Positions 1,458 through 43,592 of a DNA stretch of 64,000 bases are shown piece by piece. This DNA comes from Hyphomonas sp. (lineage in GTDB: Bacteria > Pseudomonadota > Alphaproteobacteria > Caulobacterales > Hyphomonadaceae). Every line of letters begins with the position of its first letter. The first letter of the stretch is position 1. The stretch lies in NCBI GenBank assembly GCA_002700305.1, contig PACZ01000024.1, positions 372,001-436,000 on the forward strand, written 5' to 3'. The notes under the pieces are model-generated. The model did not search any database, was not told the origin of the DNA, and worked only from the letters and a program-made list of their open reading frames with translations. The position numbers were made by a program, and so were the translations under genes.

Positions 1458-4337
1458 CTAGTTGGCGCTGGTCAGGTTACCTGCCTGGTCGATCGACCAG
1501 CCGAGGTACCAGGTGTCATCGGCATCTTCGACAGCGCCGATGTAGGTTGTGGGCTCGAGTTCGCCGATGCCGGTCACGTCGAACACCGGAACAGCGTTCT
1601 CATTGTCACCCGGAACCACACCGGGGCGCCCGGCGCGGAAGGTGAAGCCGCTCATCGTCGCCGACTGGTTCGTGACGAGGTTGTTGGCTGCCGGGTTCGA
1701 GAACACGTCCGGCTCACCTCCGGCGTCGCTGGCGAACGGTGCACCGTTGTCGGCCAGGAACATGGACTGAAGGTTCAGCGTTCCGGCGTTAGCATTGGCA
1801 ATCGTCGTATCCGTGTCGACATCCAGACCGAATTGAGGCCAGCCAAGCACGATCAGATTGGCAATCGTACCATTCATACCGCGGCGCAGCTTGACACCGA
1901 TTTGTGAAGTAGCGTCACCACCGGCAATAATCGTGAGGTTCGAAACACGCGGTGTCGAGATCGGTGTCGCCAGTTCATCGTTCTCCAGGTTATCGCCTTC
2001 GATACCGTTGGAGTTATCGGTGATATTGCCAGTCGCAGAACCAACGCCGCTGTAGGCAATGCCGTACTGAAGCGAGCCGACCCAGCCATCGGTCCAGTCG
2101 AACTGGTCATCACCGCAGCCGATGGCCAGCATGTGCTTCGCGCTGACCGTGCCGCCGAACCACTCAAAACAGTCGTCCTGGTTGTTGTAGACCTGGACAT
2201 AGTCGACTTCCGTGCCCGAACCGACGCCCTGGAACGCAATACCGTTCAGTTCGTCTTCGGTCGTCAGCTGAACGCCGGCATATTCAACGCGGGTGTAGAA
2301 GATCTGACCGGAGTCGTCGTCTGCTGTGCCACCGCCGAAGAAGCCCGAGGAACCCTCGCCCGGTTTTTCACAATCAACCGTTCCGCCGGTACCCGATCCG
2401 CCGCAAGCGTTGATCGGTGCACGGCCGTTGATGATCACGCCGCCCCAGATACCCTTGGTATCCTGATCGAACGTGCCAGTGCCGGCAACTTTGTCTTTCG
2501 CGGTGAACACGACCGGTTTTGTAGCCGTACCGTTCGAGAGCAGTTTGGAACCGCGGGCAATCACGAGGTAATCGTCGTTGCCTTCACCGACCACAGTCAC
2601 GCCCGGATCGATGGTCAGGTTGGCGGCGACAGAGTTCGTACGCGGCGCAGCCGGATCAGGACCGAGGTCCACACCGACGAAGACCGAACCGATCAGTTCG
2701 TAGATCAGGGCATCACCATTGGTCAGGCGAACGTTGGATGCGACAGTCCCAGTTATCTGGCAAAGCTTTTTGCCGTCGAGGGTGCCGTTCTCCGTGGTGC
2801 CTGCCGGGCAGTTGACGTCCACTTCCGGGAACAGCGTGCCGGGCTGGGCGAAGCTTGCCCAGTTGTCGGAAACGGTTTCCGTCGGCGAGAACGCGCCGAT
2901 ATAGTTGGTGGTCGTGAAGAAGGTATCGCCGGAAAGCGCGGTCGATACCGGAACATTCAGTTCCTGCTGGCCGGGGAAGAAGCCATCAACCAGCGTATTG
3001 TTGGCGGTGCGGATATTCGCGGACGCCGGGAACGAGATCGGCGTGTCGCCGTCGCTGTTCTCGAAGTTCACGGTGTTGTCCAGCAGCCAGCTCTCGAGCG
3101 TCAGGTCCCCGCTATCGAGGTTGAGGAAGGTCTGGTCGGTGTCGATATCCAGGCCTGTCGGGAAGCCTGTCACGATGAAGTTGACCAGCGTGCCTTTGGT
3201 CCCGCGGCGCAGCAGAGCACCGTAAAGATTGCCTTCGCTGCCAACCATCGTGACGTTCGAGATGCTCGGATCAGAGAACGGCGTTGCGTCGAAAGCGTTG
3301 TTTAGGTTGTCAGCCTCGATGCCGTTCGGATCACCCGAAGTCGGGATGTTGGAATTGACGACTGCGAACTGCAGCTTGCCGGACCAGCCATCGGTCCAGT
3401 CGATGCTGTCGTCGCCGGCGCCTGTGGCAACCAGGTACTTCACATTCACCGTACCGCCGAACCACTCAACCGCGTCATCGAGGTTGTTGTGAACCTGGAT
3501 GTGATCGACAACAGTGCCGGAGCCGACGCCCTGGAAAGCGATGCCATTCAGTTCGTCTTCCGTGGTGAGCTGCGCACCCGCATACTCGACCGAAACATAC
3601 TGAAGCGTACCGGAGTTATCGTCTGGCTGGTCGCCGCCGAAGAAGCCGGACGAACCTTCGCCGGACTTCTGGCAGTCTGCCGAACCGCCCGTCAGGCCGC
3701 TACAGGCGTTGATCGGTGCGAAGCCGTTGATGACCAGGCCGCCCCACTGGGCGTTGGTCGTCACTTCGGTGATGGACGAACCGGTTTCTTCGTCGTTCAT
3801 CTTTGCCCGGGACGTGAAGCGGATCGGGTTCGCTGCCGTGCCGACAGCTTCAATTTTCGAACCGCGTGTCACGACGAGATAGTCGTCGGTCGCGGTTGAA
3901 GTACCGGAAGCGGAAGCACCGAAGAAGCGGACACCTTCGCCAATCGTCAGAGTGACCGGCGTGCCGGCGTCGTCACGGTTGTCTTCACCAACAAAAACCG
4001 GGCCGCGCAGCGCAATCGTCGTATTTGCAGGGATGGTCACGTCGGTGGTGAGGACAGTCGACGTGCCGGTACCACCGAGCACACAGACGTTCACATCAGA
4101 GAAGCCATCAGCCGCAATTGCGTCAAAAGTCGCTTCGGAGGTGCCATCCGGGCAGCCTGCCGTCGGCACAAGCTCGATCGTCGCGGCAGCTGGCGGCGGG
4201 GGCGGCGGAGGCGGCGGAGGGCTGATTGGAGTCGAAGGCGCGCCGGGTGACGAAATGGTCGTGTCCGAGCATGCAGCCAGCGTCATCACGGCGAGGCTCG
4301 CCATCGTCGCCAGCTTCAGTGTTTTACGGATTTTCAT
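1458..4337 (-). CDS. Large internally duplicated beta-helix-like lipoprotein
   Basis: This 959-residue protein has a lipoprotein signal ending LAAC (Cys23), a run of about ten prolines near residues 40-49 that would act as a stalk, and then two homologous halves. Each half carries the same series of motifs: DDYLV.(T/A)RGSK, WGG(L/V)(V/I)ING.APINAC, GEGSSGFFGG, VEYAG.QLTTEDELNG, FEWFGGTV or VEWFGGTV, D(W)TDGW, and LRRG. The repeating short hydrophobic strands, many Asn/Asp/Gly residues and paired cysteines suggest a right-handed beta-helix exposed on the cell surface or in the periplasm. No catalytic residues are evident. The next gene downstream is a TonB receptor, so a substrate-capture role comparable to SusD-type lipoproteins is a reasonable inference but is unproven. 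Confidence 0.85.
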   Translation of the reverse strand: MKIRKTLKLATMASLAVMTLAACSDTTISSPGAPSTPISPPPPPPPPPPAAATIELVPTAGCPDGTSEATFDAIAADGFSDVNVCVLGGTGTSTVLTTDVTIPANTTIALRGPVFVGEDNRDDAGTPVTLTIGEGVRFFGASASGTSTATDDYLVVTRGSKIEAVGTAANPIRFTSRAKMNDEETGSSITEVTTNAQWGGLVINGFAPINACSGLTGGSADCQKSGEGSSGFFGGDQPDDNSGTLQYVSVEYAGAQLTTEDELNGIAFQGVGSGTVVDHIQVHNNLDDAVEWFGGTVNVKYLVATGAGDDSIDWTDGWSGKLQFAVVNSNIPTSGDPNGIEADNLNNAFDATPFSDPSISNVTMVGSEGNLYGALLRRGTKGTLVNFIVTGFPTGLDIDTDQTFLNLDSGDLTLESWLLDNTVNFENSDGDTPISFPASANIRTANNTLVDGFFPGQQELNVPVSTALSGDTFFTTTNYIGAFSPTETVSDNWASFAQPGTLFPEVDVNCPAGTTENGTLDGKKLCQITGTVASNVRLTNGDALIYELIGSVFVGVDLGPDPAAPRTNSVAANLTIDPGVTVVGEGNDDYLVIARGSKLLSNGTATKPVVFTAKDKVAGTGTFDQDTKGIWGGVIINGRAPINACGGSGTGGTVDCEKPGEGSSGFFGGGTADDDSGQIFYTRVEYAGVQLTTEDELNGIAFQGVGSGTEVDYVQVYNNQDDCFEWFGGTVSAKHMLAIGCGDDQFDWTDGWVGSLQYGIAYSGVGSATGNITDNSNGIEGDNLENDELATPISTPRVSNLTIIAGGDATSQIGVKLRRGMNGTIANLIVLGWPQFGLDVDTDTTIANANAGTLNLQSMFLADNGAPFASDAGGEPDVFSNPAANNLVTNQSATMSGFTFRAGRPGVVPGDNENAVPVFDVTGIGELEPTTYIGAVEDADDTWYLGWSIDQAGNLTSAN

Positions 4338-4623
4338 TAAACTTCCCTCTATGACCCCCTGCGGGCCGCTATGTCTCAGTTGTCAGGCATGCGCGAGTTC
4401 CCGGAATCCCCGCGGGAATCTTCTGCCGCCGAGGTGGCTTATGGCAGCGTTGATTTACGGTTACGAAACGGTTTGATTAACCTTTTGTGACGGCCTCGAA
4501 TTTATCGAGAGGTTCTTCGGAAGCGTCTAAATTGATTGCAGATTGCGACCTGCAACAGTTGCTATAGCCCGACGATACAAGGCTTACCGGACTTCCCGGT
4601 TCAATATTTCTGGCTCGGTAAAG
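4338..4623. other. Intergenic region upstream of the duplicated lipoprotein
   Basis: No gene is seen. It must hold the promoter of the lipoprotein-receptor pair. One operator-like inverted repeat, CTCGA-N5-TCGAG, sits at 4495-4509. I found no convincing Pho box or sigma-70 promoter. Confidence 0.4.
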
Positions 4624-5496
4624 TTACTGAGCCGGCAAGCTGGCCAGCACCTGATCCATCGGGATTTCCATCAGCACACCGTCGCGGGAAAAGAACAAAG
4701 TCTGATCATCTCCCGACAGACCGGCACCGAATTCGTTCGCTTCCGAATTCAGAGGCGGCCCGGGATTCACAGGATCGCTCCAGGTTCCATCCGCGTTGCG
4801 CGTGCTGGTCCAGATGTCTGCACCGCCCTCTTTCGGCGTCCGGTGCGAGTAGAAGAAGATCCGCTGGCCGTCCGCTGTGATCACGGAATGATCATCGGTA
4901 CGCATGTCATTGAGATAGCTGAGGAAGGCCGTGATCTTCCATGCGCCGGTCTCATCCTGATGCGCCTCGCCGAGGCCGTAACCGAATCCATCCATTTCGA
5001 AACGGCTCGAGACAAAGATCATGGTGCCATCGGCGGCGACAGACGCGATCGTCTCATCTGCATTGGTATTGATCTCACCCTCAATAGGGCTTGGTTCCCC
5101 CCAGGCTGATCCGTCCCACTCTACGCGCCAGATATTCAGGTCCCGCCCGCCCAGCGGCGGCGGCAGGACGGCGTCCGACGCGAAATACAGAGCGCCGTCG
5201 GCGCGACTGAAGCTCGCCCCCTTGAGCCGCTTGCGGCCTGGCAGGTCCATCCGCGCGGGCTCCGACCAGGTCTTGCCGGTCTTGTGCATCTCGTAGAGCC
5301 ATGCCTCGCCGTCATCTTCCTGCGTGTAGATGCGGATGGTTCCATCCGGGCTCTCGGTCATGGAATAAGCATTGTTTCCGTGGCCCGGCGCTTCAGCGCC
5401 CGGGAAGATTGCCACAGGGCCGGAAGGCGCAGGTTTTGAACAGGACGCCAACACGCACAATGCGGCCACCGCTATGGGAAAAAGTCTGATAGTCAT
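4624..5496 (-). CDS. PD40/beta-propeller lipoprotein
   Basis: The mature part is a TolB/PD40-like propeller: it contains repeated blade signatures such as SMTESPDGTIRIYTQ, GTMIFVSSRF, ADGQRIFFYSHR, GGADIWTST and GDDQTLFFSRDG, each typical of WD40-like PD40 repeats. I chose the ATG that gives MTIRLFPIAVAAL with lipobox VLASC (290 residues) because GAGG lies 6 nt upstream; the frame is open further upstream but that extension reads through the neighbouring regulator gene. The start codon nearly touches the stop of the upstream Xre-type gene, so the two are likely translationally coupled. The role is unknown; such proteins are usually periplasmic binding scaffolds or hydrolase-associated propellers. 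Confidence 0.75.
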   Translation of the reverse strand: MTIRLFPIAVAALCVLASCSKPAPSGPVAIFPGAEAPGHGNNAYSMTESPDGTIRIYTQEDDGEAWLYEMHKTGKTWSEPARMDLPGRKRLKGASFSRADGALYFASDAVLPPPLGGRDLNIWRVEWDGSAWGEPSPIEGEINTNADETIASVAADGTMIFVSSRFEMDGFGYGLGEAHQDETGAWKITAFLSYLNDMRTDDHSVITADGQRIFFYSHRTPKEGGADIWTSTRNADGTWSDPVNPGPPLNSEANEFGAGLSGDDQTLFFSRDGVLMEIPMDQVLASLPAQ

Positions 5497-37048: not shown

Positions 37049-39676
37049 TTAGAAGTTGGCGAGCAGTTTGACGTAGTAGTAGCCACCCTGCCAGTCGATG
37101 ATGTCGCCGGAGCGATAGATACGGCCACAGCAGCTGTCACCAAGTTCCGCTTCATCCGGATACTGGTCGAAAGCGTTGCGGGCACCGATCGAGATCTTCA
37201 CGGCTTCAGAAGCCTGGAAGGACCCTTCGAGGTCAACCTGAACCTTGGCACCATAGTCCTGATAAACCAGCGGCGCATTCGAGCCGTCGGAGTTTGTGGA
37301 CTCACCATAGTAGTTGGCACGTGCCAGGAAGCTGTAAGGTCCGACTTCGTGCGTCACGGAGAAGACGCCGCGCCATTTCGGATCGTAGTTGACGAAGTCG
37401 TACTGGTCTTCGTCGTTGAACAGTGAACCGACATCGCTGTCGAACTCAGTCTTGTTGTAGTTCACAGATCCCGTGAACTTCGTTGAAGACCCGTTCGCCC
37501 AATCCTTGGAGTAGGTACCAACAATATCCACACCCTTGGTGCTCGTGTCGAAAGCGTTGGTGAAGTAGAACACGCCACCAATCGATTCCGCGCCGACAAC
37601 CCCGGCACCAACGAGAGCGAGATAGTTGTCATATGCAGTGCCCGCGCCCGGATCCGTCGAAACATCCTGCGTCGAAATTGCATTCACACGATCTTCCAGG
37701 TCGATCTGGTAGAAGTCGACCGTCAGCGAGAAGGCATCATAAGACGAAGTGAATCCCAACGTGTAGTTGGTGGACTTCTCGGGTTTGAGCGGCTCAGCGC
37801 CAAGCGCGCCGGCAATCGGACCGCCTGCCGGGAACAGCCCCGTTGCTACAGGGAAACCATTGGGCAGACGGGTCGACACGTTGGTCGTACCCTGCTGGCC
37901 CGGTGTCGGAGCCCGGAAACCCGTACCGACAGAACCGCGCATCGCAAAGTTCGGCGTGAACTCATAACGCCCAGCCAGCTTCCAGACCAGTTCGGAGTCG
38001 AAGTCCGAATAGTCTTCGAAGCGCAGGGCACCTTGCAGGAACAAGGCATCCGTTACGTCAGCACTCAGATCACCGTAAATGGCATAGGAGTCACGCGTGT
38101 ATTCGCCCGAGAATTCCGGAGAGTAGCCCGGGAAGCCATTCGAACCGACGCCAAGTGCGGTATAGACCGGATCATCCGGGTTGGAGCAATCGAGCGACGA
38201 GCCACTTGAGATCACCGCCGCACCCGCGGCCGTTGGCGCCCCCGAAGCACAGAAGCCCCAAGGATCCGGAAGGGAGTATGGACCATCCTGATACGATGCT
38301 GCGTCACCACCAACCAATTCATACGACTCGTCGAGATAGCTGGCGCCGAAGGCAAACAGCAGCGGGCTCGAAAGACCGACTTCAAACTCCTTGGAGAAGT
38401 CCGACTGCAGCTGCATTTCTTCGTTGATCAGATCGCCAGGGTGAAAGCTTGTCGGAGAGGCATCGCCCAGCGACGGGTTGACAGTATTCTTCAGCGTATA
38501 CTTGATCTCGTTGTGACCGAGACGTCCGCTGAAGTCATATGTGATGCCGTTGTCCCATTCACCTCGGGCACCGACGACACCGGAGTAGTCGATCACGTTG
38601 CCGAAGAAGCGCGGGGTAAAGCCGCCCGGGAACAGGAAGAGCGAAGACCAGAGCGATCCATCTTCAAGACGGATGTTCTCAATCGTGCCATTGCCTGGAT
38701 AACGGTAGAAGAAACCGCCGTCCGCTTCGGAGTTCGAATAATTGCCGAAGCCATAGAGCTCAACATCGCCAATTGTGTAACCGGCGTTCACGAAAGACCG
38801 GAAGGCTTTGGAGTTCGGTTGCCCCCACGGCTGAACGACACCAGAACCAGAATAGTCAGCGCTATCGAGACCGGCGATGAAGGAGTCCAGATCGAAACCA
38901 GCGATCGACGTATCGCCCGGATTGAAATCAGGGCTGTCCACGTCCACACAGACCCAGCTCTGACAGTACTGTTCACCGCGAAGCGTCGCATCAGCCTTCG
39001 AGTATTCGGCAGAGACGTTGATGAAACCATTCTCACCGAGACCAAGACCGAAGTTACCTGCAAGTGTTGTATTGAAGCCGTCACCCTCATAGTACTGACC
39101 GAAGTCGGCACTGATCGCACCACCTTCCGGGGAGTCCTTCAGGATGAAGTTGATGACGCCGGCAATTGCGTCGGAGCCGTACTGAGCCGCAGCGCCATCG
39201 CGCAGGACTTCAACGCTTTTCAGCGCAATTGCAGGAATTGTTGCAATATCCGGCCCCTGCGTACCGGACCCGCCGATCTGCACCAGAGCGGCGCGGTGAC
39301 GGCGCTTGGAATTGACCAGGACCAGCGTCTTGTCAGTGGGCATGCCCCGCAGCGTTGCCGGACGGATGAATGTACCGCCATCAGAGATCGGCTGGCGAGA
39401 CAATGAATAAGACGGAACCAGCGTCTTGATGATGTCGTTGGCATCGGTAAACGGGACGTCGGAGATTTCGTCTGAACTCAGAACGTCTACTGGAACAGGC
39501 GAATCCATAACGGAACGGGCCTTGCCCCGCATACCGGTGATGATAACTTTTTCCTGTACGGAAGTTTCATCGGCTGCCGGTTCATCGTCTGGTTCTGCGT
39601 AAGCCACTCCCCCAGTGACCACCATTCCCACGACCGCTGATGACACGGCACATTTCAAGAAAGAACTAAATCGCAC
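37049..39676 (-). CDS. TonB-dependent receptor
   Basis: The receptor has 875 residues from a GTG start (VRFSSFLKCAVSSAVVG) that gives a proper signal peptide ending VAYAEP and has GGGA upstream; the longer frame has no signal. The plug shows VIITGMRGKAR (TonB box region), RPATLRGMPTDKTLVLVN, and VEVLRDGAAAQYGSDAIAGV. Barrel strands continue to a terminal Phe (YYVKLLANF). The long plug motif with LRDGAAAQYGSDAIAG is typical of a large receptor subfamily in marine Proteobacteria. It stands as a single gene with its own terminator; the ligand is unknown. Confidence 0.94.
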   Translation of the reverse strand: MRFSSFLKCAVSSAVVGMVVTGGVAYAEPDDEPAADETSVQEKVIITGMRGKARSVMDSPVPVDVLSSDEISDVPFTDANDIIKTLVPSYSLSRQPISDGGTFIRPATLRGMPTDKTLVLVNSKRRHRAALVQIGGSGTQGPDIATIPAIALKSVEVLRDGAAAQYGSDAIAGVINFILKDSPEGGAISADFGQYYEGDGFNTTLAGNFGLGLGENGFINVSAEYSKADATLRGEQYCQSWVCVDVDSPDFNPGDTSIAGFDLDSFIAGLDSADYSGSGVVQPWGQPNSKAFRSFVNAGYTIGDVELYGFGNYSNSEADGGFFYRYPGNGTIENIRLEDGSLWSSLFLFPGGFTPRFFGNVIDYSGVVGARGEWDNGITYDFSGRLGHNEIKYTLKNTVNPSLGDASPTSFHPGDLINEEMQLQSDFSKEFEVGLSSPLLFAFGASYLDESYELVGGDAASYQDGPYSLPDPWGFCASGAPTAAGAAVISSGSSLDCSNPDDPVYTALGVGSNGFPGYSPEFSGEYTRDSYAIYGDLSADVTDALFLQGALRFEDYSDFDSELVWKLAGRYEFTPNFAMRGSVGTGFRAPTPGQQGTTNVSTRLPNGFPVATGLFPAGGPIAGALGAEPLKPEKSTNYTLGFTSSYDAFSLTVDFYQIDLEDRVNAISTQDVSTDPGAGTAYDNYLALVGAGVVGAESIGGVFYFTNAFDTSTKGVDIVGTYSKDWANGSSTKFTGSVNYNKTEFDSDVGSLFNDEDQYDFVNYDPKWRGVFSVTHEVGPYSFLARANYYGESTNSDGSNAPLVYQDYGAKVQVDLEGSFQASEAVKISIGARNAFDQYPDEAELGDSCCGRIYRSGDIIDWQGGYYYVKLLANF

Positions 39677-40039
39677 TTTGTATTCCCTTTCCGCAGCGAA
39701 ACCGTCACTCTCTTCACGGCTCCGTCTGCCCCCTGTTGTCGAGCACACACCAGCTTCCCCCGTTGAGCCGAACGCCCAAGGCACTGATATCCTGAGGTGT
39801 AAGTCGGGCCCGCCATTGAGCCATACCCGTCAGAGGGCTGTTAAAATGCCGTCGTTGGCACTCCGCTCCAGCTGACTTGTGTTCAGGCTGTTCCGGGTGT
39901 CAGGGATTGCCAATTCGAAAGGCGCTGCGACTGGCGTTGAATCTTTAACCCGTCATGCTTTTGTGCACTGCACACCAGACAACGCCCAAAGTCTCAGCAC
40001 ATGGGCGGAGTACAGTAATCTTCCAAAATTTGTAAGGTT
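39677..40039. other. Intergenic region upstream of the TonB receptor
   Basis: No gene, repeat or RNA was recognised. It should hold the promoter of the receptor and the 3' end of the ANTAR gene transcript. Confidence 0.4.
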
Positions 40040-40693
40040 TCATGGAAAAAGCGCGAAGATTGCCAGAATGTTTTCTGCCACTTCCCGCATCGTTTTGCCC
40101 TGAGTCATCGCCAGGCGGCGCATGGAATCGTAGACTTCCTGCTCAGGTAGGCCGCTCTTGGTCATCAGCAGGCCTTTGGCACGTTCAATTGTCTTACGTG
40201 CGGCCAGGCTTTCCTGGGATTTTCGTAGTTCGTCGCGCAATTCAGAGGTCAGCACATGACGCTCTTCAGCCACCTCAAGAATGACCGGGATGCGCTCAGG
40301 CTCCAGGCCATCGACGATGAACGAACTGACGCCAAGCTTCAGTGCCCGGCTCATTTCTTCCCGTGAACTCCGGTCAACGAAGACAAGAATCGGAATGGAC
40401 CGGAAGCGCCGCATCGCCAGAAGCTCTGACAACAAATCAAGGTCTGCTTCCACAGACGCGAGAATAATGGCGCTGGCGCCAACCAATTTTAGACGCCCGG
40501 TCTCCCAGTCCGCTTGCCCGGTGACCTCAACCTGCAAAGGCTTGTCGCTGAGCCCGCCCGCGATCAGGCTGGCTCTGGCTTCATCGCTGGCCAGCACCAG
40601 TATCTGGCTGTCCCAGACGCTGGATTCAGCTGATTGGGCAAATTGCTGGCCTTCTTCCAGCAACACAGCTCCGCGAGAGGTATCTGACGCCAT
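40040..40693 (-). CDS. ANTAR-domain RNA-binding regulator (NasT/AmiR-like)
   Basis: The 217-residue protein has a receiver-like N-terminal domain at about 20-135 (SAIILASVEADLDLLSELLA, IPILVFVDRSSREE, ALKLGVSSFIVDG), a coiled-coil linker, and a C-terminal ANTAR domain (IERAKGLLMTKSGLPEQEVY, DSMRRLAMTQGKTMREVAENIL). ANTAR proteins bind paired RNA hairpins and prevent premature termination; AmiR and NasT control amide and nitrate use. I chose ATG 40693 over an upstream TTG. No sensor-kinase gene is adjacent. It is divergent from an amino-acid-oxidase-like gene, so nitrogen or amino-acid catabolism may be the target. Confidence 0.88.
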   Translation of the reverse strand: MASDTSRGAVLLEEGQQFAQSAESSVWDSQILVLASDEARASLIAGGLSDKPLQVEVTGQADWETGRLKLVGASAIILASVEADLDLLSELLAMRRFRSIPILVFVDRSSREEMSRALKLGVSSFIVDGLEPERIPVILEVAEERHVLTSELRDELRKSQESLAARKTIERAKGLLMTKSGLPEQEVYDSMRRLAMTQGKTMREVAENILAIFALFP

Positions 40694-41043
40694 GATGATC
40701 CAGGCTCTGGTCGAAACGTTCAAACCGATAATTTCATTGGAATCTTGAGGACAGTCCCGCCAACACCAAACAGGCTAACGCAATTTGCCCCCTCAGTTTG
40801 TCTGCAACTGGTCATTCCTGTTTCGCGTTTGACCAAATACCCGGCACAATAGCGGCGCACTTAAAGCCACTGCGTTGGCGAGTTTCGCCCCCGCTCCGGG
40901 AGCAATTGCGCGTGAAACGATGTCAACCGCTTCAGGGACAAGCAATTCGGGGACGAAGCCGCCTCTCTTCCGCTGCCCGCCTTGACCGCTACCTGGACCG
41001 ACTCAATGGTTGCCTCAGGGACCGCATTTGCATTGAGGGAATT
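40694..41043. other. Intergenic region between ANTAR and DAO-like genes
   Basis: This 350-bp stretch holds both divergent promoters and a leader ahead of the oxidase gene. I see short hairpins (for example GGCGA-gtt-TCGCC), but not a clear paired ANTAR hexaloop target. Confidence 0.35.
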
Positions 41044-42189
41044 ATGAAACGTAGAGACTTTCTGGCGTCTGGCACCGGCCTTGGCCTGGCTGCCCTTGCT
41101 GGCTGCGCAACAAATACTGCCGGTATTGCGACGGCCCCGGTAACGGGTGATGCGCTGGTACAGTCCATCGGGGCTCCGATGCGCCCCATCAAATCATCGA
41201 TGAGCCGGGTGACCCGCACAATTGTCGGCCTGCGTCCGTTCCGAAAGCCTGGACCACGCCTGGAAGCCGTCACGGTCGGGTCCAAACATGTCGTGCACAA
41301 TTATGGGCATGGCGGCGGGGGCGTCTCTCTTTCCTGGGGCGTGGCCGAACTGGCGGCCAATCTGACGAAAGAGGCACACAGCAACCGGGTTGCCGTGCTC
41401 GGGTCGGGCGCGGTCGGCTTGTCCACAGCCATCCTGCTGCAGCGCGCCGGAGTGGACGTAACGATCTACGCGAAGGACTTCCCGCCATACACAACCTCAA
41501 ATGTGGCAGGTGCGATGTGGCACCCGGTGACCCTGTTCGAAAGCGATCAGGTGTCACAGGAAACCCTTGCCATGCTCGATCTCGCCTCTCGGATCGCGTT
41601 CAACCGGTTCATCCGGTTCGCAAACGATCCGAAGTACGGCGTTTACTGGATCCGCCAATACTCGCTCAGTGAAAGGCCCATGAGCACCCTCCGGCCCTAT
41701 GTCGGTGGGGACGCGCTTTATCCGGGACTGGTCCGCAACCGGCCCGGTGGCCCGTTCGGCTTTCCTTATTACGATGCCTATTACACGCTGATGATCGACC
41801 CGGACATTTATCTGCGCGCGCTGGTGAATGATTTTCTGGCCGCTGGCGGACGTATGAAAGAAATGGCGTTCGAGACCGAAGGGGATCTCGAAAAGCTGAC
41901 GGAGACAAGCATCGTCAATTGTATGGGGCTCGGCGCGGGGAAGGTCTTTGGGGACGAAAGCATCATTCCTGCACGTGGACAGCTGAGCTTCCTGCTGCCT
42001 CAGAACGACATTGACTATGGCTATGCCGGATCAGTGGATGACTATGGCCTGCTTTATTCCTTCCCCCGGAAGACCGGAATTCTCCTCGGCGGATCTGTTG
42101 ACAAAGGCGACTGGAGCCTCGAGCCGCGCGCCGATGAAATCCGGCGTATGGTGGATGGCCATGCTTATCTCGCCTCCAAACTGACCTAG
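41044..42189 (+). CDS. Tat-exported D-amino-acid-oxidase-like flavoprotein with circularly permuted domain order
   Basis: The 381-residue protein begins MKRRDFLASGTGLGLAALAG with a lipobox-like Cys21, so it is a Tat-exported lipoprotein. Residues about 53-105 contain GLRPFR (62-67) and HNYGHGGGG (85-92), elements found at the C-terminus of normal D-amino-acid oxidases. Only after these comes the FAD-binding fold VAVLGSGAVGLSTA (GxGxxG at 120-125), which normally starts the protein, then the substrate domain, and the chain ends at GGSVDKGDW...DGHAYLASKLT, where a normal DAO would continue into GLRP. The order is thus circularly permuted. GAGGG precedes the ATG. Probable reaction: FAD-dependent oxidation of a D-amino acid or amine; substrate unproven. 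Confidence 0.85.
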   Translation: MKRRDFLASGTGLGLAALAGCATNTAGIATAPVTGDALVQSIGAPMRPIKSSMSRVTRTIVGLRPFRKPGPRLEAVTVGSKHVVHNYGHGGGGVSLSWGVAELAANLTKEAHSNRVAVLGSGAVGLSTAILLQRAGVDVTIYAKDFPPYTTSNVAGAMWHPVTLFESDQVSQETLAMLDLASRIAFNRFIRFANDPKYGVYWIRQYSLSERPMSTLRPYVGGDALYPGLVRNRPGGPFGFPYYDAYYTLMIDPDIYLRALVNDFLAAGGRMKEMAFETEGDLEKLTETSIVNCMGLGAGKVFGDESIIPARGQLSFLLPQNDIDYGYAGSVDDYGLLYSFPRKTGILLGGSVDKGDWSLEPRADEIRRMVDGHAYLASKLT

Positions 42190-42216
42190 CCCGAAGAGAA
42201 ACTTTTCCAGACACGC

Positions 42217-42255
42217 AAGGTCGGACCTTCCCTCGAAGGTCCGGCCTTTCTTTTG
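42217..42255 (+). terminator. Rho-independent terminator of the DAO-like gene
   Basis: An AAGGTCGGACCTT / AAGGTCCGGCCTT stem with a short loop is followed by TCTTTTG, 27 bp after the stop. Confidence 0.88.
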
Positions 42256-42278
42256 TGCCTCAAGCGGCGCACTCGGGC

Positions 42279-42301
42279 GTTTTGACGTGACCGGTCAAAA
42301 C
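42279..42301. promoter_or_regulatory. Nested palindrome upstream of the isochorismatase-like gene
   Basis: GTTTTGAC-N7-GTCAAAAC is an 8-bp inverted repeat that also contains the perfect 10-bp palindrome TGACCGGTCA. It lies about 145 bp before the gene and is a candidate regulator site. Confidence 0.4.
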
Positions 42302-42447
42302 TGTGGCGTCCGCCGTCAATACCCTCGGCGCCCCTCCGCATATCCAGAACTCAGCTCAAGTCTGAAGGGCAAGGACGCACCGGAACGGTGGCTGCCCCCC
42401 CTCACGAACGACGGCGGAAAACTCAAACGACTCTTGTGGAGGTCACC

Positions 42448-43257
42448 ATGTTTACTTCGCGTATTTCCCTGAAACTCCTTCTGGCGTCGGCCGGCCTTGC
42501 CAGCCTGCTGAGTGCCCAGCCGTCCGCCGATGCCGAAACGGCTCGCGCCGCGACGGCGAAAATGCCACCGGTGAATGATGGCCTGCCGATGCCGGGCTTC
42601 ACCATCGATCCGGCCACGACCGCAATCGTCATCACAGACCCGCAGAACGACTTCCTCTCGCCGGATGGCGTTACCTGGGGCGTGGTCGGCCAGAGTATCA
42701 CCGAGAACGGCACCGTGGAAAATCTGGAAGCCCTGTTCAAAGTCGCCGGCGAAACCGGCATGCCGGTCTTCGTGTCACCGCACTTCTATTTCGAACATGA
42801 CCACAAATGGGAATTCGAAGGCACGCTCGAAACACTGATGCACAGCATCGGCATGTTCGACCGCCCGCACGCGCTCACCCTGGAAGGCTTCGAAGGCTCC
42901 GGCGCTGACTGGCTGGATCGCTACAAGCCTTACATCAACAACGGCAAGACGGTCGTCACCAGCCCGCACAAAGTCTACGGCCCGGAAACAAACGACCTCG
43001 TTCTCCAGCTGCGCAAGGCCGGCATTTCCAAGGTGATCCTGGGCGGGATGTCGTCGAACCTCTGCACGGAGTCCCACATGCGCGAGCTGATCGAGCAGGG
43101 CTTTGAAGTGATGGTGGTCACCGATGCGACGGCTGGTGCCATCACGCCGCTCTACAATGGCTACGACGCCTCTCTCACCAATTTCCGGATGATCGCCAGC
43201 GCGGTCAACAACACCGAAAACACGGTGAAGGCGATCAAGGCCGCCTACCGGAAATAG
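42448..43257 (+). CDS. Exported isochorismatase-family hydrolase
   Basis: The 269-residue protein has a signal peptide (SLKLLLASAGLASLLSAQPS) and then the isochorismatase fold: IVITDPQNDFLS with the catalytic Asp, a Lys in TVVTSPHKVYG, and the Cys nucleophile in ILGGMSSNLCTESHMREL. GGAGGT precedes the chosen ATG. Such proteins hydrolyse amides; export suggests action on a periplasmic substrate. It lies between the DAO-like gene and a YHS-domain gene and ends at a strong terminator. Confidence 0.87.
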   Translation: MFTSRISLKLLLASAGLASLLSAQPSADAETARAATAKMPPVNDGLPMPGFTIDPATTAIVITDPQNDFLSPDGVTWGVVGQSITENGTVENLEALFKVAGETGMPVFVSPHFYFEHDHKWEFEGTLETLMHSIGMFDRPHALTLEGFEGSGADWLDRYKPYINNGKTVVTSPHKVYGPETNDLVLQLRKAGISKVILGGMSSNLCTESHMRELIEQGFEVMVVTDATAGAITPLYNGYDASLTNFRMIASAVNNTENTVKAIKAAYRK

Positions 43258-43300
43258 GCTCCTCCCCATCCACGTCTCACCCCGCGTGGATGACCTGCAG

Positions 43301-43347
43301 CCCGGCTGGCGGCTTTTCCCTCTCTCTCCACCGCCAGCCGGGCCTTT
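43301..43347 (+). terminator. Terminator of the exported isochorismatase gene
   Basis: The 12-bp stem CCCGGCTGGCGG / CCGCCAGCCGGG with an 18-nt pyrimidine-rich loop is followed by CCTTTC, 43 bp after the stop. Confidence 0.8.
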
Positions 43348-43391
43348 CACCCCCTCGCATCCCATCCATTCGAAAACTCAGGGAGTACGAC

Positions 43392-43592
43392 ATGCCCGAG
43401 CAAGAACTTCTTCCTCCCCTGGAGCCCTCGCCCGGCCAGTTACGTGTCGCCTGTTCCCTGATCTTCCTAGTCCGTCTGGAGCTCGCTGTCCGAGAAGTTC
43501 CAGACACCCAACTCCTGCCGGTTTCCTCACCTGACCGGCAGGAGCCCTCCCCCAAGAGCCTTTGGCTCCAACCTCCCGAAAAGGAAAATGAA
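43392..43592 (+). other. Structured leader upstream of the YHS-domain gene
   Basis: The leader starts with GGGAG and an in-frame ATG (MPEQELLPPLEPSPGQ) that would read through into the YHS gene. It contains two strong hairpins: GTCTGGA/TCCAGAC with an inner CTCG/CGAG (43474-43505), and CTCCTGCCGGT/ACCGGCAGGAG (43512-43544). It may be a regulatory leader or an attenuator. No known riboswitch was recognised. Confidence 0.4.

Follow-up and report, generated by a model that had tools for sequence, protein, structure and literature searches.

A circularly permuted relative of D-amino-acid oxidases with a putative Tat-lipoprotein signal in Hyphomonas

The locus and the order of its modules

The DNA analyzed here (the window) is a stretch of 64,000 nucleotides from the marine bacterium Hyphomonas sp., in which an open reading frame on the forward strand at 41044-42189 encodes a protein of 381 amino acids, with an ATG at 41044 and a stop codon that ends at 42189. 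A Shine-Dalgarno-like GAGGGA can be read at 41035-41040 (+), three bases 5' of the ATG; the frame is open further upstream to a TTG at 40798, and in the alignment 11 relatives share the twin-arginine start of the 381-residue protein. A divergent gene for an ANTAR-domain regulator (40040-40723, minus strand) is its upstream neighbor, with a TonB-dependent receptor gene behind it (37049-39784, minus strand). Genes for isochorismatase-family, YHS, and DUF1348 proteins, followed by AhpF/AhpC-like genes (the last so named from their Pfam domains), lie 3' of it.

The protein starts with a predicted Tat signal (RRDFL) and lipobox (LAGC) at residues 1-21 (41044-41106, +), both recognized by eye. This is followed by a tether at residues 22-52 (41107-41199, +), which is variable in the alignment and poorly predicted in its first part (pLDDT <50 at residues 1-37). 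Residues 53-109 (41200-41370, +) correspond, by PDB and profile matches and by the predicted strands and helix, to the segment that normally terminates D-amino-acid and D-aspartate oxidases (DAAO/DASPO; GLRPFR...HNYGHGGGG...SLSWG), and contain in order the GLRPFR strand (62-67), a beta-hairpin, the HNYGHGGGG turn (85-93, with HNYGHGG at 85-91), and the final helix. In the predicted model, a new junction at residues 110-114 (41371-41385, +) leads from the old last helix into the old first strand; its flanks in the trimmed model are a helix at 46-65 and a strand at 71-75 (44 is to be added for full-protein numbering). The FAD-binding and substrate body, delimited by Pfam, PDB matches, and the model, occupies residues 115-379 (41386-42180, +), with the GxGxxG motif, here GSGAVG, at 120-125. 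Thus, the usual module order of the family, with the FAD fold first and GLRP/YGHGG last, is reversed. The preliminary description, which had placed the GLRPFR/HNYGHGG segment at about residues 53-105, ahead of GxGxxG, is borne out with slightly wider limits, as is its statement that the chain ends where a normal oxidase enters GLRP: the body stops in the helix that precedes GLRP in normal members of the family.

Several comparisons bear on this arrangement. A phmmer search of the 381-residue protein against PDB returned two stretches per chain for all 17 DAAO/DASPO sequences, and the order of the stretches was swapped in the best three chains (6rkf, 7ct4, and 8hy5), those for which alignments were printed. 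In 6rkf, query residues 113-370 align with chain residues 12-264 and query residues 58-115 with 281-342; in 7ct4, query residues 55-112 align with 319-376. A profile of 15 permuted relatives likewise gave two stretches in 16 of 17 DAAO/DASPO rows, with none of the best 60 of its 64 PDB chains having a best stretch over 55-370, and no single-stretch match in permuted order was present in the best 60 rows of either the phmmer or the profile search. Further, the mature chain was rotated by four-residue steps, and a model of 19 bacterial proteins with normal order served to score every rotation. The best single stretch rose from 143.1 bits (model positions 5-269) in the native order to 201.1 bits (model positions 11-325 of 328), with a peak for a chain starting at residue 113 and a drop to both sides; the whole-sequence score was nearly flat (195.0 versus 201.4) because it sums both stretches. 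Since the 381-residue protein and its relatives were themselves the queries that recovered the 19 proteins of the model, the PDB comparison constitutes the independent check.

A C-module model built from normal-order proteins only scored 59.5 bits in residues 1-112; of 1000 shuffles, 754 yielded a score, with a maximum of 6.3 bits. With this normal-order model, residues 301-381 contained no second C-module (-2.2 bits), and none was found 3' of the gene in six frames of window 42000-43400 (best -0.6 bits); among frames of at least 40 aa in the whole window, this gene gave the sole match at E 0.1. The search of the protein end and the downstream frames thereby rules out a second GLRP/YGHGG copy at the C terminus, the finding that the preliminary description had named as fatal to its claim. 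The Pfam DAO model matches best at 115-370, with 115.2 bits against a gathering score of 27.9, and the DAO signature VVHNYGHGGGGVSLSWGVA at 83-101 fits, by eye, the PROSITE pattern; the arginine of GxRP is present.

AlphaFold2 modeled the mature chain (residues 45-381; 14 sequences) with a mean pLDDT of 92.0 and a pTM of 0.90, versus 66 and 0.70 when the signal peptide was included (12 sequences). The model starts with three strands and a helix (56-67, 72-78, 81-87, and 90-109), which pass through a short turn into the Rossmann strand at 115-119. DAAO/DASPO chains head the Foldseek matches; that to 6rkf_B (TM 0.67, 2.8 A) covers 275 alignment columns, gaps included, for 337 residues, a sequential alignment whose shortfall roughly equals the moved module in length. 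Residues 53-109 may occupy the place of the DAAO C-terminal module in three dimensions. In BFVD, eight matches were obtained at E 0.001, the best with a TM of about 0.5 and none annotated as a DAAO. Taking the swapped PDB stretches, the rotation peak, the confident fold in native order, and the recurrence of the order in relatives together, circular permutation, as first claimed for this protein, is the supported reading that fits the module order, and we regard the protein with high confidence as a natural circular permutant of the DAAO/DASPO family with the anatomy described above.

Distribution and origin of the permuted order

A genome scan recovered 11 loci in other genomes, all permuted and of similar length (377-387 aa). 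Ten of them, 71-94% identical in the best segment, come from Hyphomonadaceae, Parahaliea maris, and a Rhodobacterales MAG, and the eleventh, at 36% identity, from Olivibacter sitiensis (Bacteroidota); at E 0.001, nothing else in the genome of the window itself matched the protein. The notion that an assembly error, a frameshift, a gene-fusion artifact, or a coincidence of motifs in an otherwise normal oxidase produced this order, for which we found no support, is contradicted by its recurrence at similar length in these 11 contigs and many more and by the absence of a C-module from any frame 3' of the gene, and has practically nothing to recommend it; assembly artifact in particular is ruled out by the order in relatives. 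Among 85 open reading frames with both modules, 66 (54 of them distinct) are permuted and the other 19 are in normal order, with one locus (L003) assigned to the permuted set by its best domain despite a weak extra match. The permuted order is seen in Hyphomonadaceae, other Alphaproteobacteria, rhizobia, Parahaliea, Bacteroidota, and Nonomuraea.

Plasmid records with matches number 61, of which 47 belong to Burkholderia or Vibrio. Fourteen plasmid records were examined. Five of them hold permuted genes (Rhizobium, Bradyrhizobium, Niveispirillum, Kozakia, and Nonomuraea, the last in a record of 11.9 Mb), eight hold normal-order genes (one each in B. glumae, Vibrio, Nocardia, and M. lentiflavum and four in Streptomyces and Streptantibioticus), and one holds a gene with a broken frame. 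The last is a Mesorhizobium copy (L018, 3735-4798) that is interrupted by a frame change and annotated as two FAD-dependent oxidoreductases. Of the five permuted genes on plasmids, three carry an annotation, in each case "FAD-dependent oxidoreductase."

Permuted-order models were also run against samples of genomes, where few first-look candidates were scored per genome in the larger samples, so that absence there is unproven. They matched 20 of 398 Pseudomonadota genomes (20/20 permuted), 15 of 289 genomes of the window's own class (14 permuted and 1 normal), and 54 of 101 of its own family (30 with loci that are permuted, 2 more permuted, and 22 unclassified), the own-group tallies including the genome of the window. 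In the phylum of Olivibacter, 25 of 247 genomes matched (3 permuted, 17 normal, and 5 unclassified, with Olivibacter itself included). A normal-order model, run as a control at E 1e-15, found matches in 13 of 299 Pseudomonadota genomes, all 13 of them on the same permuted genes; normal-order genes do occur in Pseudomonadota, on the plasmids of Burkholderia and Vibrio.

No match to the protein was found in the phages collection, and three scans of the viral_contigs collection yielded only L107 (the same gene as L132) and L133/L134. L107 (1420-2454, identical to L106 6385-7419) is a permuted copy with a shortened C terminus that comes immediately after a gene for a terminase large subunit. Genes for a portal protein and a head maturation protease are found further along, and the cluster, from a genome of the genus Hyphomonas, resembles a gene-transfer agent or a prophage. 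We also observed a very divergent permuted pair, comprising L082 (1105-2496, minus strand) and L148 (a 425-aa frame), with the motifs CxRPMRxGAPN and HGGSGWTLGPGSA; the start of L148 is Sec-like and not Tat-like.

For phylogenetic analysis, 59 sequences (36 permuted and 23 normal), which remained of 130 after thinning at 80% identity, were aligned with the permuted ones rotated to normal order. The careful tree of 58 sequences, from which the long-branched L082 was left out, requires one change of order, a result recovered in 96% of 200 bootstrap trees and equaled by none of 500 shuffles. One change is also sufficient in the quick tree of all 59 sequences, including L082, and in a body-only tree (SH-aLRT 86). 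The permuted sequences form two separate clades, of 30 (support 99/96) and 5 sequences (100/100). That the permutation arose more than once, separately in these two branches, gains something from the branch uniting all permuted sequences having a support of only 94/83, which falls below the tree kit's star, versus the higher values for each clade alone; against it, one change is enough in all three trees, and the sequences seen have the C-module first, running straight into the FAD fold. Hence, we regard separate origins as improbable. An origin by duplication and trimming predicts intermediates with a duplicated module, and none was present among the 130 frames with both modules at E 1e-3. 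Normal module order is found across the wider DAO superfamily and is for this reason taken to be ancestral. The presence of the permuted order in several bacterial groups then suggests one old rearrangement that founded all permuted relatives and built a whole branch of the enzyme family; a single ancient permutation would have been passed down to branches with and without an export signal.

Export, active site, and genomic context

The proposal that a Tat/lipoprotein signal precedes the moved module agrees with the alignment, in which R3, R4, and C21 are invariant in 12/12 rows and no row has an aspartate after the cysteine. As judged by eye, the Tat-lipoprotein features of twin arginines, a hydrophobic stretch, and a lipobox cysteine are all present. 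We therefore consider C21 the likely lipid-bearing residue and the protein to be probably Tat exported and lipid anchored. Across 37 loci (among which L106 and L107 are the same gene), a twin-arginine start was seen by eye in 32 and, together with a lipobox cysteine, in 29. L017, L098, and L102 have a Tat-like start without the cysteine, L013, L015, L016, and L101 have no signal, and in L100 the frame begins inside the C-module. In the large permuted clade, 29 of 30 sequences have the twin-arginine start, the exception being L037 (the same gene as L100); in the small clade, 1 of 5 has a Tat-like start (L039, the same gene as L102), which argues against calling this clade cytosolic. Because some permuted relatives carry no signal, export is not required for the permutation and, like anchoring, is ruled out as its sufficient cause.

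Alignment to PDB chains identifies R64 (41233-41235, +), G91 (41314-41316, +), and Y338 (42055-42057, +) with what we take to be, in the numbering of mammalian DAAO, Arg283, Gly313, and Tyr228, the first presumably being the arginine that binds the substrate carboxylate. R64 and G91 are kept in all 59 sequences, permuted and normal. The tyrosine is present in 12/12 sequences of the window clade, in 5/5 of each of two other permuted groups, and in 20/23 normal-order sequences, the other three having phenylalanine. Only 2 of 13 members of one exported subclade retain it, and in L082 the position falls in a gap. In 11 of these 13 (L014, L017, L029-L032, L034-L037, and L105), a cysteine replaces the glycine before LRP/TRP, and the subclade also mostly loses the GG of the following strand. 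As the tyrosine is mostly missing there, other substrates are possible, and these sequences point to a probably changed substrate in the subclade. Two further positions, V331 and V352, align in 6rkf with what we take to be the aspartate-binding arginines of human DASPO (Arg216 and Arg237); valine at both does not fit D-aspartate specificity. With the other site residues kept, a neutral D-amino acid would be the likeliest type of substrate.

The retention of the substrate arginine, the glycine, and the window-clade tyrosine suggests that the protein is a D-amino-acid oxidase or dehydrogenase of the periplasm. The sequence places the new termini in the loop that separates the pre-GLRP helix from the GLRP strand, with the junction at about residues 110-114 joining the old ends. 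In the mechanism that we propose from the motifs and the way in which Tat works, FAD would be loaded in the cytoplasm, and the folded protein would then be exported via Tat and tethered by Cys21. By analogy to DAAO chemistry, Arg64 and Tyr338 would bind a D-amino acid by its carboxylate in the periplasm, and hydride would be transferred from C-alpha to FAD. Hydrolysis of the imino acid would give the keto acid and ammonia, and oxygen, or a respiratory acceptor in some relatives, would reoxidize FADH2. The D-amino-acid step of this scheme is one that we favor by a modest degree.

The main competing possibility accepts the permutation and holds that the protein is an exported oxidoreductase with a respiratory acceptor, acting on another amine, a hydroxy acid, or a peptide-derived compound. 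The rarity of the Tyr228 equivalent in the exported subclade is in its favor, as is the Kozakia homolog, with a cytochrome c gene directly behind it and X-Pro/prolyl peptidase families around, and also the FAD_binding_4/BBE and ThDP enzymes that adjoin some signal-less relatives. It has to contend with the retention of the Arg283, Tyr228, and Gly313 equivalents in the window clade and with the finding of CxxCH nearby on the same strand in only 2 of 37 loci, of which only that of Kozakia is plainly a cytochrome. We accord it a real but lesser chance than the D-amino-acid reading. A broader conjecture, which we would call rather unlikely, is that a single ancient permutation gave rise to a distinct and largely unnoticed branch of the DAAO family, which supplies many Pseudomonadota with their main DAAO-type enzyme, and that the exported members of this branch, in which the substrate-arginine strand adjoins a lipid tether, pass their electrons to periplasmic or respiratory acceptors and not to oxygen.

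The genomic context varies among the loci and thus conveys little about the substrate. The ANTAR and TonB-dependent receptor genes are found together in 4 of 39 loci (the related loci L001, L002, L003, and L010), the AhpF/AhpC-like genes in the same four, and the isochorismatase/YHS/DUF1348 set in 3 of 39; no operon partner conserved across the exported clade was detected in the 39 loci. ANTAR regulators are often tied to nitrogen sources, and a neighborhood with an uptake receptor, such a regulator, and enzymes that remove peroxide would match an oxidase acting on external amines, a weak indication. On the Kozakia plasmid (L017, 3887-5113), the permuted gene is followed by a cytochrome c gene, with prolyl/X-Pro peptidase-family genes and a TonB receptor around it, which points to a respiratory dehydrogenase at that locus that acts on amines of proline type or derived from peptides. 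Signal-less permuted genes at L013 (4929-5990), L015 (4926-5978), and L016 (near 3866-5029) stand beside a gene for a ThDP-dependent enzyme. These ThDP enzymes, which adjoin the relatives from Rhizobium, Bradyrhizobium, and Nonomuraea, are 43-60% identical to each other, and an FAD_binding_4/BBE enzyme also adjoins the two rhizobial genes; L101, L102, L133, and L134 showed no ThDP gene of this kind. It is possible that the signal-less permuted gene and the ThDP enzyme, with the BBE-type FAD enzyme in rhizobia, belong to an undescribed pathway.

Relation to known flavoenzymes

In natural circular permutants elsewhere, two segments are exchanged and the ends rejoined while the active-site residues are kept. 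DAAO is a textbook flavoenzyme, and a natural permutant that keeps its substrate-binding residues is a ready object with which the dependence of folding, FAD loading, and Tat export on chain order can be tested; the design of enzymes and biosensors can likewise profit from permuted scaffolds whose termini are new. In the PMC literature, we found no description of a permuted DAAO-type flavoenzyme, most subscription papers being outside its scope. In the parts of one survey available to us (PMC9844085), just over 10 bacterial DAAO genes are said to have been known before, all from one phylum (given as "Acinetobacteria," presumably Actinobacteria), genes from six bacterial strains and one archaeon are added, and the word "permut" does not appear. 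The permuted order may help explain why few bacterial DAAOs are recognized; in Pseudomonadota, the classified matches are permuted in 20/20 genomes, in 13/13 with the normal-order model, and in 14/15 genomes of the class.

Glycine oxidase (ThiO) and D-amino acid dehydrogenase (DadA), which we take to belong to the same DAO superfamily, resemble the 381-residue protein only through weak matches at the FAD motif. ThiO (TIGR02352) scores 48.2 of 250.8 bits and DadA (PRK00711) 20.5 of 383 bits, both far below the respective cutoffs; TIGR02352 matches 13 of 15 relatives (alignment A3) at E 1e-5, and none of the best 25 of 101 NCBIfam models (E up to 10) comes near its cutoff. With the normal-order bacterial DAAOs of Burkholderia glumae, Nocardia, Streptomyces, Vibrio, Mycobacterium, and Bacteroidota, the protein shares the R283 and G313 equivalents (23/23), but these have the FAD fold first and occupy a separate side of the tree. 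The closest likeness is to the solved DAAO/DASPO structures (6rkf, 8hy5, 7ct4, and 2du8; PF01266, DAO), with which it has in common the GxGxxG motif, the NC-GLG region, the RGQ strand, the GLRP arginine, HNYGHGG, and the final WG helix, at an identity of 21-26% to the 33 chains heading the Foldseek list. Unlike these, it has the last module first, its termini before GLRP, and a Tat/lipobox signal. The permuted DAAO-like form is old and widespread within a known enzyme family.
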